This document shows, in pieces, positions 19,278 through 25,606 of a DNA stretch of 64,000 nucleotides (positions are counted from its first letter, which is position 1; the number at the start of each line of letters is the position of its first letter). Source of the DNA: Halopelagius longus (GTDB taxonomy: Archaea > Halobacteriota > Halobacteria > Halobacteriales > Haloferacaceae); assembly GCF_900100875.1 (NCBI RefSeq), contig NZ_FNKQ01000002.1, positions 372,001-436,000 of the forward strand. The letters are read 5' to 3'. The notes beneath the pieces were generated by a model. The model was not told where the DNA came from, did not search any database, and worked only from the letters and a program-made list of their open reading frames with translations. Both the position numbers and the translations under genes were made by a program.

Positions 19278-21626
19278 TCACTCGACGGACGACCAGAACC
19301 GTTCGACGCCGAACCCGAGCATGTCGGGGCTGACCGGTTGGAACTCCTCGCGTTCGTCCGGCGGGAAGTACTCGCGGACGCCGTTCCACGACTCCCGGGC
19401 GTAGCGGGCGTCCACGAACGCGCGGATGCCGGTTTCGTCCGCCCCGCGGATGACGCGTCCGATGGCCTGTCGCGCCTTCCTGACCGCCGGGACGGTCAAC
19501 GCGGCCTCGAAGCCGTCGCCGAACTTCCGGTCGTACGCCGTCTTCAGCGCCCGCGTCCGCGGACTCGACGTGTTGATGATCGGGACGCCGCAGACGACGG
19601 CCGCCGACAGGCGGTCGCCGCGGTAGTCGACGCCCTCCGTGAGCGTCCCGCGCAGACTCGTCACCAACACCTTCTGCTCGCCGCCGAAGAAGTCCGCCTT
19701 CAACTGCTCCGTCGCGCCGTCGTCGCTGGCCTCGTCCAAGAGGACGGGCTTCTCGAGGCGCGACTCCAACGCCCCGGCCATCCACTCCGCCTCGGCGTAA
19801 CTCGGCATCCCGACGAGGACGTTCCCCGGCGACCGAGCGACGTCGGAGACGGCGTCCACGTACGCCCGGCGCGTCTCGTTGTCCTCGCCCGGCGGGCCGC
19901 GATTCTCGTAGGTGAACTTCGGCACGTCCACGGCGAAGGACGCACGATTTTCCTCGGGGAACGAGAGCCCGTACGTCCGTTCGACCACCGGCCGGTCGGA
20001 CGATTCCAGAGCGTTCAGCCCGGTCACCTCCTTGAACACGTCCAAGGGGGCGAGCGTCGCGGACATCAGCACGCCGCCGCCGAACTCGCCGAGTCGTTCG
20101 GCGATGGCGTCGCCGGGGACGCAGTTGTGAAGCGAGAGGTGGGCGTTGTACGCGCGCCGCCACGAGTCCGGCCGCGCCGTCTCGTCCCACGTCCGGTCGA
20201 GCGTTATCTCCCGGAAGTACGTCTCGTGGTCCTGCCGCGCCCAGTTGGCGAGGGTCCGTCCGACCGGAAGCGACGCGCGCCGCTTGTCCTCCTCTTCGAC
20301 TTCGTTCAGGACCCGGGCGACCACCGCGCCGACCGACTCCGCGCGAATCCACGTCCCCTCGTCGTAACCCGCCTCATCGGCCCACTCGGTTATCTCGTCC
20401 ACCTGGGGGGTCTCGGGGTCTCTGAGCGGAATCTCGTCGTCATCGAGTCGGGTGAGGTCCGCGCGCCAGTCCGGCGTCGTCCGGTCGAGGTGGGCCGTCA
20501 CCCGCCGGTCGAGTTCCTCGCGCAGGTCCCGCAGGAAGTCGCGCACCTCCTCTAACTCCCGCAGGGTCACGTCGGCGTCTTCGAGTTCGCCGCGGACGAG
20601 TTCGGCGTCCTCGACGCCTTTCCCCTTATCGTCGAACGTCAGCGGTTGAATCACGCGCGTCAGTTCGTTCTCGGCGTCGCGGAGGGTGGCGTCGCCCACG
20701 CCGTCGCTGACGAGTTCGCGCACGCGCGGTTCGAGCATGTGCGCCTCGTCGCAGACGACGAACGTCGAATCGTCCACCAACGCGCCCGTGAACGACCCGA
20801 CGGTCGTCGGGTCGAACGCGTGGTAGTAGTTTCCGACGACGACTTCGACGTGCGGGAGGACCGCCCCCATCGCGGAGTGGGGGCAGGTCCCGTACCCGGC
20901 GGCGAGGCGGACGAGTTCCTCGGTGTCCACCAGTCCGAGTTCGGTCACGTCGAACGGCACCGCCTCTATCGGGTCGCCGTCCTCCGGCAGGTCGTCCAGA
21001 AACGTCGCGTAGAACGGGCAGAACTCGGTGCCGTCGTAGTCGCCCGTCTCGGGGAGGTACGGCGTCGGTTCGCCCGCCGTCTCCAGATACGTCGGCCCGC
21101 CGTCGTTCCCGGAGTCGATGAGGCCCGTCTGGGCCGCCTGCGCCTCGCCGACGAGGGCGGAGGTGGAGGTGACGCCGCCGTCGCCGACGAGATTGCGCGT
21201 TCGCTCCCGCAGGCCCTCACAGCGGTCGTACACGGTCTGGTCGTCGATGCCGGCGACGTTCTCCCTGCTGTAGGGGCAGACGTCCGCCTTCCCGACCATC
21301 GTCAGGCCGGAGACGGGCCGCCAGTCGTCGGGGAGGTTCTCGTTTATCGTCCGCAGGTCGGCCTCGAACTGGCGCAGTTGCTGTTTGACGCTCGTCAGGA
21401 CGAGGACGCGTTCGTACTTCGAGTCGGGGTCCCGAACCCTGTCGATGCCCGCGGTAAGCGCGAGCATCGTCTTCCCCGTTCCGCACGCGCCCTCCACGAC
21501 GAGGAACCCGTCGTCGTCCGCCGCCTCGGCGGCGGCCTCGATACCGTCGGCTTGCTCTTCGTACGCTTCCGGATGGCCGAAGACCGCCTGCCAACTCACG
21601 TTCGCCCCTCGCGCCCCCGTGGTCAT
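19278..21626 (-). CDS. rad3: Rad3/XPD/DinG-type ATP-dependent DNA helicase
   Basis: A 782-residue superfamily 2 helicase. Walker A GACGTGKT is at 46-53, and VCDEAHML is the DEAH box. Four cysteines between motifs I and II (VCPYS, DRCEG, FCPFY, TCPHS) are placed to hold the 4Fe-4S cluster of XPD-like helicases. C-terminal motifs include SATLAP, the GTLTEGVDYRG segment and QAIGRVIRG (motif VI). Known family members unwind DNA 5' to 3' in repair. A 56-base gap separates it from the winged-helix gene upstream, so the two may be co-transcribed. Confidence 0.92.
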   Translation of the reverse strand: MTTGARGANVSWQAVFGHPEAYEEQADGIEAAAEAADDDGFLVVEGACGTGKTMLALTAGIDRVRDPDSKYERVLVLTSVKQQLRQFEADLRTINENLPDDWRPVSGLTMVGKADVCPYSRENVAGIDDQTVYDRCEGLRERTRNLVGDGGVTSTSALVGEAQAAQTGLIDSGNDGGPTYLETAGEPTPYLPETGDYDGTEFCPFYATFLDDLPEDGDPIEAVPFDVTELGLVDTEELVRLAAGYGTCPHSAMGAVLPHVEVVVGNYYHAFDPTTVGSFTGALVDDSTFVVCDEAHMLEPRVRELVSDGVGDATLRDAENELTRVIQPLTFDDKGKGVEDAELVRGELEDADVTLRELEEVRDFLRDLREELDRRVTAHLDRTTPDWRADLTRLDDDEIPLRDPETPQVDEITEWADEAGYDEGTWIRAESVGAVVARVLNEVEEEDKRRASLPVGRTLANWARQDHETYFREITLDRTWDETARPDSWRRAYNAHLSLHNCVPGDAIAERLGEFGGGVLMSATLAPLDVFKEVTGLNALESSDRPVVERTYGLSFPEENRASFAVDVPKFTYENRGPPGEDNETRRAYVDAVSDVARSPGNVLVGMPSYAEAEWMAGALESRLEKPVLLDEASDDGATEQLKADFFGGEQKVLVTSLRGTLTEGVDYRGDRLSAAVVCGVPIINTSSPRTRALKTAYDRKFGDGFEAALTVPAVRKARQAIGRVIRGADETGIRAFVDARYARESWNGVREYFPPDEREEFQPVSPDMLGFGVERFWSSVE

Positions 21627-21682
21627 ATCGGTGTCGGTGACTGGCCTCGCCTTCCTACTTCAACGTCCGGCGGAGCGACCGG

Positions 21683-22132
21683 TCACTCCTCCCGCGGGGC
21701 GTCGGCGGCGGAATCAGAATCGGAGTCGGCGGACGGAAGGATGCCGAGCGATTCGACGAACCGGTCGAGTCGGTCCAGAAGCGGCGACTTGTCGTCCGCG
21801 CCGCCGACGCAGACGACGAACGCGTCGTCGGTCGGCGCGTACACCTTCATCTCGCGGCCCTTCACCGAGTAGCACGTGTCCGCGACGCGGACGAGGTTCG
21901 CGTCCCGAAGGTTGTCGAGGTGGTGGCGGACGTTCTGGAGGGAGGTGTCCACGCTGTCGGCGAGTTCGGACGCCGTCGCCGGGTTTCGCTGGAGGGCGGC
22001 GAGCGTCGAACGCGCCGTCTCCGAGGAGAGACAGCAGATGAGTCGCTCCGCCTCGTCGTCGTCGAGCCAGAGTACGCGGAGGTTCCCGTCCTCGTTCGAG
22101 ACGTCGATATCCGACGGGAGGGGCGTCGACAT
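21683..22132 (-). CDS. Winged-helix transcriptional regulator (ArsR-like)
   Basis: A 149-residue regulator. A winged helix-turn-helix spans about 30-100: ERLICCLSSETARSTLAAL helices, ATASELADSVDTS turn region, SLQNVRHHLDNL recognition helix and a wing with YSVKGREMKVYAP. The rest is a short sensor-like segment with VVCVGG and an acidic tail. The start is set at 22132 because a TATA-like GTTTACAAC lies 27 bases before it. A cluster of CCGGTCAC half-sites lies further upstream, and one more copy overlaps its own stop codon. Regulated genes could include itself, the MFS transporter upstream or rad3 downstream. Confidence 0.8.
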   Translation of the reverse strand: MSTPLPSDIDVSNEDGNLRVLWLDDDEAERLICCLSSETARSTLAALQRNPATASELADSVDTSLQNVRHHLDNLRDANLVRVADTCYSVKGREMKVYAPTDDAFVVCVGGADDKSPLLDRLDRFVESLGILPSADSDSDSAADAPREE

Positions 22133-22154
22133 ATCGTTCGGTTCATATCTCTCG

Positions 22155-22163
22155 GTTGTAAAC
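22155..22163 (-). promoter_or_regulatory. TATA box of the winged-helix regulator gene
   Basis: On the minus strand GTTTACAAC is centred 27 bases before the ATG at 22132, consistent with a leaderless transcript. Confidence 0.45.
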
Positions 22164-22201
22164 ATTTCGGAGCGAATACGCGAAGAAGGCGTCGCCGTAC
22201 G

Positions 22202-22252
22202 CCGGTTACGTCTCCCGTGACCGGTCCGGTCACCGGTCACTTGTCCGGTCAC
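22202..22252. promoter_or_regulatory. Cluster of CCGGTCAC half-sites (putative operator)
   Basis: Exact CCGGTCAC occurs at 22226-22233, 22233-22240 and 22245-22252. Its inverse GTGACCGG at 22217-22224 makes a 17-base palindrome GTGACCGGTCCGGTCAC (22217-22233), and a degenerate CCGGTTAC lies at 22202-22209. The cluster sits 40-95 bases upstream of the regulator's TATA box, where archaeal activators bind, and just after the MFS transporter stop. A further exact copy is at 21679-21686. Confidence 0.5.
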
Positions 22253-22261
22253 GGACTCTTT

Positions 22262-23437
22262 CTACGGCGGCGCGTCCTCCGCGCCGGGGAGTCGTCCGGA
22301 GAGGTACAGCGCAGTCAGGAGAGCGACGACGACGACGAGAACGCCGGCGAACGCGCGGAACACCTCGTCGAACCCGTACCCCGCCCCCGTGAGGAAGCCG
22401 ACGGCTCCGCTCCCGTTGGCTTCCAGAAGGAGCGACGCGCCACTGAACACCGCGTACGTGCTCCCCCGAACGTCCTCGGGGAGCGTCCCGAGGAGCCACG
22501 CGTCAAGGGCCGGAAAGAGGCTGTGGACGGTGTAGCCGACGACGACGGTGACGAGGAGCACCGGCACGAATCCCCGTACCGCGGTCAAAGCGAACAGCGA
22601 GGCGACGTAGGCGGCCATCGTCGCGAGGATGTACGGAATCCGCGGGAGGCGGTCCGCGAGGCTCCCCGAGAGCCAGAACGCCGGGACGCCCGCCGCGAAG
22701 ACGGCGGTGAGCATCGTGCTCGCGGTGTTCTGCGTGAACGACTTCGCCTCGACGAGATACGAGACGTAGAAGTTGAACAGCCCCTGCCAGACGAACCCGG
22801 CGGTGGCGATGACGAGCATCCCCGTGAGGATGAGTCGCCAGTGGCCAAGCGCGCCCGCGAAGTTGCGGTCCGCGCCCGTTCCGGGCGTGCCGTCCATCCG
22901 CCGAACCGTCGCGTAGACGAGGAGCGTAGCCACCGCGGCCCCCGCGGCGAGGAGCCAGAACGTCGCTCGCCACGACGCGGTGGCGAGAAAGAGGACGGCC
23001 ATCGGCGCGGCGGCGACGGCGGCGAGTTGCGAGGCGGTGCCGTGGATGCCGATGGTCCGCCCGACGGCGTCCGGGTAGAGTTCGCCCACGAGGGGGACGG
23101 CGGCGACGAAGTACGCCCCGGAGGCGACGCCGATGGCGAACGCGCCGACCTGGAGCATCAGAATCGACGCCGCGGAGGCGACGAACGCCGCGGCGGCGGT
23201 GAGAAGCGCGCCGGTGGCGAGGACGACGCGGTGGCGCGGAACGCGCGTCAGCAGGTAGCCCACGGGGATGCGCGGCAACGCCGTGCCGACCCAGACGAGC
23301 GTCGTCACCACGCCCACCGTCGCGGGGCCGACGCCGAACTGCGATTGGAACGTCTCGACGAGCGGTGCGAACGCCGTCCGACCCAGGTTGACGAGAAACA
23401 CCAGTCCGCAGAGCGTTCCGAACAGTCGTCGCGTCAC
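22262..23437 (-). CDS. MFS transporter
   Basis: A 391-residue major facilitator protein with about 12 hydrophobic segments. LVFLVNLGRTAFAPL starts the first helix, and the inter-helix loop after helix 2 (VGTALPRIPVGYLL) resembles the MFS loop 2-3 motif. I chose the GTG at 23437 because it directly precedes the first helix and avoids overlap with the divergent small gene; a longer frame reaches 23629 but its extra part looks non-coding. Substrate is unknown. A regulator gene and a half-site cluster follow it, so it may be under that regulator's control. Confidence 0.78.
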   Translation of the reverse strand: MTRRLFGTLCGLVFLVNLGRTAFAPLVETFQSQFGVGPATVGVVTTLVWVGTALPRIPVGYLLTRVPRHRVVLATGALLTAAAAFVASAASILMLQVGAFAIGVASGAYFVAAVPLVGELYPDAVGRTIGIHGTASQLAAVAAAPMAVLFLATASWRATFWLLAAGAAVATLLVYATVRRMDGTPGTGADRNFAGALGHWRLILTGMLVIATAGFVWQGLFNFYVSYLVEAKSFTQNTASTMLTAVFAAGVPAFWLSGSLADRLPRIPYILATMAAYVASLFALTAVRGFVPVLLVTVVVGYTVHSLFPALDAWLLGTLPEDVRGSTYAVFSGASLLLEANGSGAVGFLTGAGYGFDEVFRAFAGVLVVVVALLTALYLSGRLPGAEDAPP

Positions 23438-23546
23438 GGCCCGCGGTTCGTCCGACCCGGTGAGTAATGTTGCGAAAGCGGACACTGACGGGAGCGAGCG
23501 TCGAACCGGCGAGGGACTGAATACGTCTCGCTCCGTACTCTCGCCT

Positions 23547-23747
23547 ATGAGAGATATCGGCCTCGGCAAACACGGCGCGGTACTGCTCGCCGTCCTGTTC
23601 GTCGTCCTCCTCGCGGAGGACGCGCTCATCTGGCTCCGAAGCGGGGCCGTCCCCGGCGTCGAGTTCTTCGCGGGGACGTTGGCGGTGCTCGCGGTGACCG
23701 CCGTCGCGGTGTACGAGGCGAACCGCCACCCGCCGGTCCGCCGGTGA
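23547..23747 (+). CDS. Small two-helix membrane protein
   Basis: A 66-residue protein with two hydrophobic stretches (about 10-28 and 36-56) separated by a short loop, ending in basic PPVRR. The start ATG at 23547 is divergent from the MFS gene, 109 bases away. I do not recognise the family; length and pattern fit the many small haloarchaeal membrane proteins. A promoter is not obvious. Confidence 0.6.
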   Translation: MRDIGLGKHGAVLLAVLFVVLLAEDALIWLRSGAVPGVEFFAGTLAVLAVTAVAVYEANRHPPVRR

Positions 23748-23785
23748 GCGCTCGGAGAGAATAGTCCGGCGCGGGGCCGAGCCGG

Positions 23786-24028
23786 TTACGACTGGAACGG
23801 CTCCTCGTCGCGGTGGTTGTCGATATTCTCCTGTTCTTCGGCCTCCTGCTCGCGCATCTCGTCTTCCTCGTCAGGTTCCTCCTCCTCTCGGTCTGCGTCC
23901 ACCTCTTCGGACTCCTCCGGCGACGACGCACCGGCGTCGCCGCCGCCTTCGACCGATACGCCGTGGCCCTCCTCGTCTTCGACGTCCGGGTCGCGGTCGG
24001 TGACGTCCGCCTCGGTGTCGTCGGACAT
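23786..24028 (-). CDS. Short highly acidic protein of unknown function
   Basis: An 80-residue protein, more than one third Asp plus Glu, with few hydrophobic residues and so probably disordered. It starts MSDDTEADVTDRD and ends NIDNHRDEEPFQS; the QENIDNHRDEEPF end looks more conserved-like than the rest. It is divergent from nnr with a 144-base gap. No function can be given. Its low complexity means it could be a non-coding open frame, but it has an ATG and haloarchaeal composition. Confidence 0.5.
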   Translation of the reverse strand: MSDDTEADVTDRDPDVEDEEGHGVSVEGGGDAGASSPEESEEVDADREEEEPDEEDEMREQEAEEQENIDNHRDEEPFQS

Positions 24029-24140
24029 AGTCGAATCGACGGGCGAGACGTGGTTAGGTGTGGCGGCCGCGCGACTCCGAGGGTGGGGAGGAGCCGCTCG
24101 AACCGCCCGACCGCGCCGCGACGCCCGCCGGACACCTCCC

Positions 24141-24147
24141 CTTTTAC
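24141..24147 (+). promoter_or_regulatory. TATA-like box for nnr
   Basis: CTTTTAC is centred about 29 bases before the ATG at 24173. Confidence 0.35.
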
Positions 24148-24172
24148 CACGCCGCCGACCGAACGGTCGAGC

Positions 24173-25606
24173 ATGATATCGAGCGAGCGAATGGCCGCGG
24201 TGGACGAGAACGCCGAATTCCTCGGCGTCCCGCGGAAACAGCTCATGGAGTCGAGCGGAAACGCCGTCGCGCGGGCGGTGCGCCGCGTCGCCGACCCCGA
24301 CTCCTCGGTGGCCATCGTCGCGGGGCGCGGCAACAACGGCGGCGACGCGTTCGTCGCGGCCCGCTTTCTGGACGAGTACGACCCGACCGTCCACCTCCTC
24401 GGCCGCCCCGAGACGATTTCGACGGACATCGCCCGCGAGAACTGGGACGCCCTCGTCGCCGCCGAGTACGACGTTCGGACGGTGACCGACTCGAAATCGC
24501 TCGACCTCGGCGACCCCGACGTGGTGGTGGACGCCATGCTCGGGACGGGCGTCACCGGCGAACTCCGGGAACCGGAGGCGACGGCCGCCGAGGCCACCGA
24601 CGCCCTCGACGCGACGGTCGTCTCGGTGGACGTGCCCTCGGGCCTCGACGCCGACACGGGCGAACGGGCCGACGCGGCCGTCTCCGCTGACCACGTCGTC
24701 ACCTTCCACGACGAGAAGCCCGGCCTCTCCGAACTGGACGCCGAGGTGACCGTCGCGGACATCGGCATCCCGGCGGCCGCGGAACTGTTCGTCGGACCGG
24801 GCGACCTGCGCACCGTCCGTCGGGGCGTCCGCGGCGGCGACTCGCGCGTGTTCGTCGTCGGCGGCGGCCCGTACACCGGCGCGCCCGCCCTCGCCGGGCA
24901 GGCCGCCCTCCGCGCGGGGGCCTCCCTCTCGTTCGTCGCCGCGCCGGAGAAAGTAGCCGGGCAGATACAGGGCTACGCGGAGGACCTCATCGTACAGGAC
25001 TACCCGGGCGACCACCTCACGCCCGACCAAGTGGACGGCCTCGTGGGGACGGCCCACGACTACGACGACGTGGTGGTCCTCGGTCCGGGACTCGGCGACG
25101 ACGACGAGACGTTAGAGGCCGCACGGCGGTTCCTCGAATCGTTCGAGGGCGAGGCGGTGGTCGACGCCGACGCCCTCCCCGTCGTGCCGGAGGTGGACAC
25201 CGACGCAACCCTCGTCTGCACGCCGAACCGCAAGGAACTGGCCAAGATGGGCGGCCCCGACGTCGAGGGGCCGTTGCGGGACGCCCGCGACGACATCGAG
25301 GCGTTCGCGGCCGACGTCGGCCACGTCGTCGTGGCGAAGGCGGCGGAGGACGTGGTCACGGACGGCGAGCGAACGCGAATCGTTCGCGCGGGCACGCCCG
25401 CGATGGCAGTGGGCGGCACCGGCGACACCCTCGCGGGTGTGATAGCGGGCCTCCTCGGCACGCAGGACCCGTTCGACGCGGCGTGCGCCGGTCCGTTCGT
25501 CAACGGCCGCGCGGCCGAACGCCTCGACGCGGAACGCGGCGACGGCCTCCTCGCGTCGGACCTCTTGGACGCCATCCCGCGGGCGTTGTGGGGTGACGAG
25601 TCGTGA
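24173..25606 (+). CDS. nnr: Bifunctional NAD(P)HX epimerase/dehydratase
   Basis: A 477-residue fusion that repairs hydrated NADH and NADPH. The N-terminal YjeF-like epimerase (about 1-210) has GRGNNGGDAF at 51-60, DAMLGTGVTG and the DVPSGLDADTG loop. The C-terminal ribokinase-like ADP-dependent dehydratase (about 215-477) has VLGPGLGDDDE, CTPNRKEL and GGTGDTLAGVIAGLL. The length is as expected for the fused form. Its TGA overlaps the GTG start of moaC by four bases, so the two genes are translationally coupled. Confidence 0.93.
   Translation: MISSERMAAVDENAEFLGVPRKQLMESSGNAVARAVRRVADPDSSVAIVAGRGNNGGDAFVAARFLDEYDPTVHLLGRPETISTDIARENWDALVAAEYDVRTVTDSKSLDLGDPDVVVDAMLGTGVTGELREPEATAAEATDALDATVVSVDVPSGLDADTGERADAAVSADHVVTFHDEKPGLSELDAEVTVADIGIPAAAELFVGPGDLRTVRRGVRGGDSRVFVVGGGPYTGAPALAGQAALRAGASLSFVAAPEKVAGQIQGYAEDLIVQDYPGDHLTPDQVDGLVGTAHDYDDVVVLGPGLGDDDETLEAARRFLESFEGEAVVDADALPVVPEVDTDATLVCTPNRKELAKMGGPDVEGPLRDARDDIEAFAADVGHVVVAKAAEDVVTDGERTRIVRAGTPAMAVGGTGDTLAGVIAGLLGTQDPFDAACAGPFVNGRAAERLDAERGDGLLASDLLDAIPRALWGDES

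Follow-up and report, generated by a model that had tools for sequence, protein, structure and literature searches.

A rare tandem palindrome as a predicted operator upstream of an ArsR-like regulator gene in Halopelagius longus

The tandem palindrome and its rarity

A tandem palindrome of the form (GTGA-N9-TCAC)-N2-(GTGA-N9-TCAC), located at positions 22217-22252 upstream of the gene for an ArsR-like winged-helix regulator in Halopelagius longus, very probably represents a conserved transcription-factor operator controlling this gene, a prediction made from sequence comparison and independent of the identity of the binding protein. In the window (the whole 64-kb stretch of DNA analyzed), the first unit (unit A, 22217-22233) is a perfect 17-bp palindrome, GTGACCGGTCCGGTCAC, which can be read as GTGACCGG-T-CCGGTCAC, and a 2-bp CG spacer (22234-22235), which sets a 19-bp period, separates it from a second 17-bp unit (unit B, 22236-22252, plus strand), GTCACTTGTCCGGTCAC, that carries one mismatch to GTGA-N9-TCAC. 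Exact copies of the 8-mer CCGGTCAC occur on the plus strand at 22226-22233, 22233-22240, and 22245-22252, with an inverted copy on the minus strand at 22217-22224. Together with a degenerate half-site, CCGGTTAC (22202-22209, plus strand), these are the elements that the initial annotation had grouped into a cluster of half-sites, and all of them were found in place. The degenerate half-site falls outside the conserved tandem and is probably incidental.

It is the tandem palindrome, and not the 8-mer, that forms the meaningful unit. The initial annotation had proposed a genome-wide count of CCGGTCAC, taking an even scatter at the expected frequency as evidence against an operator, and for the 8-mer this is what a pattern search of the genome, set against simulated genomes modelled on the window, returned: nine copies in the window for 7.5 expected, and 272 copies scattered over the 3.87-Mb genome for 366-433 in ten order-4 simulated genomes. 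This lack of enrichment makes the 8-mer count misleading, and it was dropped as a measure. The further exact copy at 21679-21686, which overlaps the stop codon of the ArsR-like gene and had been counted into the system as lying before rad3, is a single word explained by the scattered 8-mer. What does stand out is clustering, with four copies in 36 bp in the window and a maximum of two in the simulated genomes (n = 10).

The tandem itself is rare. Allowing up to one mismatch, a pattern search recovered exactly three instances in the genome and none with the reversed pattern as a control, for a mean expectation of 0.07 per genome in 15 simulated genomes. The three sites lie at C2:2405 (no mismatches), in the window (one mismatch), and at C5:199721 (one mismatch), and the existence of only three such double sites implies a very small regulon. 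The tandem GTGA-N9-TCAC operator family was defined in this analysis from sites at an orc1/cdc6 locus described below, and the window tandem shows both dyads and the 2-bp spacer, with one mismatch among the 16 fixed bases. The stricter pattern GTGAYC-N5-GRTCAC occurs four times in the genome, unit A being one of these and two others falling inside coding sequence. Furthermore, a matrix built from 13 orc-locus sites, all of them from genomes other than that of the window, scores the array at 22217-22252 with 31.5 bits, the next unrelated site in the window with 5.8, and the katG-side tandem at C5 with 29, and a matrix derived from Halobellus promoters again places 22217-22233 as the top site in the window. 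Rarity, conservation before orthologues, and matrices from other genomes hence all bear out the initial suggestion of a specific operator-like array, as a prediction.

Genomic context and conservation

The ArsR-like gene (21683-22132, minus strand) encodes a 149-aa winged-helix protein (HTH_20/HTH_5) that scores above cut-off with PF12840 (47 bits) and PF01022 (32.2 bits) and, with 33.2 bits, below the cut-off of 55 for the curated metalloregulator model NF033788. Its core promoter, CTCCGAAATGTTTAC (22158-22172, minus strand), is BRE/TATA-like, and the same CCGAA..TTTA block precedes its orthologues. Measured from the TTTA box (22159-22162), the tandem spans 55-93 bp upstream, with a 54-bp gap before unit A, so that the 40-95 bases given by the initial annotation were roughly correct. 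A 14-bp imperfect direct repeat, CATATCGTTCGGTT/CATATCTCTCGGTT, is also seen at the regulator start codon (22130-22157). Downstream of the regulator lies a gene for a Rad3/DinG-type helicase (19278-21626, minus strand), and upstream an MFS transporter gene (22262-23437, minus strand, start codon uncertain), with the array just 3' of its stop codon. The order nnr, MFS, ArsR-like regulator, rad3-type helicase (19278-25606) is widely kept in the family, and in Halobellus the MFS gene is absent between nnr and the regulator.

In 12 Halobellus species, the promoter of the regulator gene carries the element GTGAYC-N5-GRTCAC-RC-GTGAY-N6-GTGTGTC, the last base of which varies once. Positions 1-4, 6, 12, 14-17, 19-23, and 30-35, comprising GTGA, TCAC, CGTGA, and GTGTGT, are invariant across the 12 species, loop positions 7-11 vary, and the element is placed at -80 relative to the ATG in every species measured and lies 14 bp ahead of the TTTA box. 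The conservation near orthologues that the initial annotation had asked for is thus present in Halobellus and decayed in the only same-genus relative compared (G001), where a single unit, GTGACCGGGTATCTCAC, is left. It does not extend to the other genera examined, no such element being detected in the promoters of regulator orthologues from Haloplanus, Halolamina, Halogranum, Haloprofundus, Halogeometricum limi, and a Haloferax-like genus (g9) that appears to be Haloferax itself. A lone palindrome in G095, a Halobellus-genus genome lacking the ArsR-like gene, looked coding and was left out of the comparison.

Outside the regulator promoter, a search of 392 genomes returned the perfect tandem once in each of 14 family genomes; the only other matches were three near-identical, coding-like sequences from one distant family. 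Where the surroundings were read, the family site sits in the gap where a FilR1_middle/HVO_A0261_N winged-helix gene, which is adjoined by a TBP gene, converges tail-to-tail with orc1/cdc6, and it is followed about 17 bp on by TATAAG. Imperfect versions in five further genomes (G009, G022, G042, G045, and G026) bring the orc-side tandem to seven genera in total, and the 2-bp spacing between units is common to the 14 perfect tandems and the 12 Halobellus promoters. In the genome of the window, the orc-side tandem lies at C2:2405-2440 (L145 2332-2367) and has no mismatches, while the third tandem (C5:199721-199756; L075 1482-1517; one mismatch) is located between the 3' end of katG, encoding catalase-peroxidase, and a gene for a 271-aa membrane protein. 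The combination of tandem and TATAAG in the gap between the winged-helix gene, here termed HVO_1726-type, and orc1/cdc6 resembles a promoter for an unannotated transcript antisense to the orc 3' end. For this transcript region, Rfam searches matched only 16S rRNA at the locus ends, and consensus folding revealed no covariation and hence no sign of a structured RNA.

These distributions refine what the tandem can be expected to control. The initial reading of an operator for the neighboring regulator stands insofar as the element precedes the orthologous gene in Halobellus and in the same genus; an assignment to that gene alone is not supported, since the same tandem lies beside a different regulator and orc1/cdc6 in seven genera. 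Control of the MFS transporter, also proposed initially, is unlikely, because the site lies 3' of the MFS gene and Halobellus keeps the site without it.

Mode of action and candidate binders

The tandem is presumably bound by a dimeric winged-helix protein, and its two adjoining 17-bp dyads with a 19-bp period would be expected to seat this protein as two neighboring dimers, with the array as a putative operator in front of the ArsR-like gene's promoter. CsmR-like positive regulators of haloarchaea have been inferred to act just upstream of the BRE/TATA (PMC13286277). The Halobellus and orc-locus tandems stop 14-17 bp short of a TATA-like box, a comparable placement, and by this analogy binding just upstream of the BRE/TATA, as at 14 bp in Halobellus, would activate rather than repress transcription. 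This spacing, 14 bp in Halobellus and about 17 bp at the orc locus, characterizes the other copies and forms no part of the family definition; the window tandem, 54 bp from its TTTA box, departs from it. By matrix score, the window array is moreover oriented opposite to that of Halobellus and lies 40 bp further from the TATA box, and this distance and reversed orientation make the effect of the window tandem less certain.

Two readings dispense with a transcription factor altogether. Given the location of the array just 3' of the MFS stop codon, and the potential of unit A to fold, the palindromes might fold into an RNA hairpin that serves the MFS transcript as a terminator or 3'-UTR element. 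However, in 5 of the 12 distinct Halobellus sequences positions 5 and 13 (C vs. A) no longer pair, whereas the halves keep GTGAYC and GRTCAC, no U-run follows the array, and the Halobellus element exists where the MFS gene does not. The independent variation of positions 5 and 13 indicates that base pairing is not what is conserved, pointing to a DNA operator, and the absence of covariation between half-sites largely refutes the RNA hairpin, which we consider extremely improbable. A role as ORB-like repeats for Orc1/Cdc6 appears hardly more credible. One conserved copy does adjoin orc1/cdc6 and an AT-rich stretch, but in haloarchaea ORBs contain a G-string, and the usual place of an origin is upstream of orc (PMC3528665; PMC4595724), whereas no tandem copy has a G-string, the orc-locus copy is 3' of orc, and the copies in the window and in Halobellus promoters are not beside orc. 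The tandem was accordingly not assigned to the ORBs, lacking both the G-string and the origin position at an orc gene.

Within the operator reading, the most likely binder is the HVO_1726-type FilR1/HVO_A0261 winged-helix protein, with the ArsR-like gene as its target, and the ArsR-like product itself is a close second, a ranking that reflects judgement and not computation. The former assignment is tentative. In several genera the 3' end of the HVO_1726-type gene directly adjoins the most conserved tandem. The recognition helix of its product is CARETAQR in 22 of 23 orthologue loci, with CARETAHR in G022, although overall identities range over 45-100%, and it differs in a 30% paralogue. The gene is present in 23 of the 24 genomes tested, and the exception, G034, also lacks the perfect tandem, although gene and site could there have been lost in a single deletion. 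Against this assignment, the site adjoins the 3' end of the gene and not its promoter, and in Halobellus the gene is present with no site within its 1.5-kb flanks. Autoregulation is common among ArsR-type repressors, and it is conceivable, if somewhat doubtful, that the ArsR-like protein recognizes the array in the promoter of its own gene, with the other two tandems as its remaining targets. The element lies upstream of the ArsR-like gene in the genus of the window and in 12 Halobellus species, and the gene, like that of the HVO_1726-type protein, occurs in the element-bearing genomes where it was looked for, in its case in every one. Most genera, however, keep the gene in nnr-(MFS)-regulator-rad3 order behind a promoter without the element, several of these retain the element at the orc locus, and the core promoter lies clear of the array. 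The well-conserved ArsR-like recognition helix, near TS(L/I/V)QN(V/A/I)RHHL almost throughout, speaks for the ArsR-like protein, but it is equally conserved where the promoter has no site. That some other protein binds the tandem seems rather unlikely. More speculative still, and improbable, is a scheme in which one winged-helix protein at the three tandems drives transcripts including that of the ArsR-like regulator and, from promoters in 3' gaps, antisense transcripts into orc1/cdc6 and katG, so coupling the TBP/orc neighborhood to a second regulator.

Significance and relation to known systems

Binding sites are known for few haloarchaeal regulators. The rare, sharply defined tandem operator predicted here is kept in several genera and links an ArsR-like gene, a TBP-HTH-orc1/cdc6 neighborhood, and a catalase-peroxidase neighborhood, marking a small, unreported set of predicted co-regulated genes. 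The object is of an ordinary kind, yet the literature searched yielded no paper on the tandem motif or on HVO_A0261, and within that literature both motif and regulon are unreported. Furthermore, the tandem provides a directly testable motif for an uncharacterized regulator, HVO_1726, in a tractable laboratory organism. In the portion of the report on Haloferax volcanii drawn on here, the HVO_1726 locus comprises an orc paralogue, an HTH gene, and a TBP paralogue, a transposon insertion in HVO_1726 leads to hypermotility, and no operator or binding motif is described for the locus (PMC7824242).

As far as that portion goes, the HVO_1726 locus shares its gene arrangement with the locus that bears the most conserved tandem (PMC7824242), whereas the window site belongs to another locus. 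As in ArsR/HTH_20 systems with dyad operators, a dyad is found here near a gene with HTH_5/HTH_20 domains, but two dyads form a strict 19-bp tandem that lies upstream of the core promoter and not over it, and the protein falls under the curated metalloregulator cut-off (33.2 vs. 55). A parallel in placement is the CsmR site, TATCA-N4-TGATA, which is semi-palindromic and, like the Halobellus element, lies directly upstream of the BRE/TATA (PMC13286277); the tandem described here differs from it in sequence, in its longer dyad spacing, in its tandem arrangement, and in occupying three genomic sites instead of dozens.
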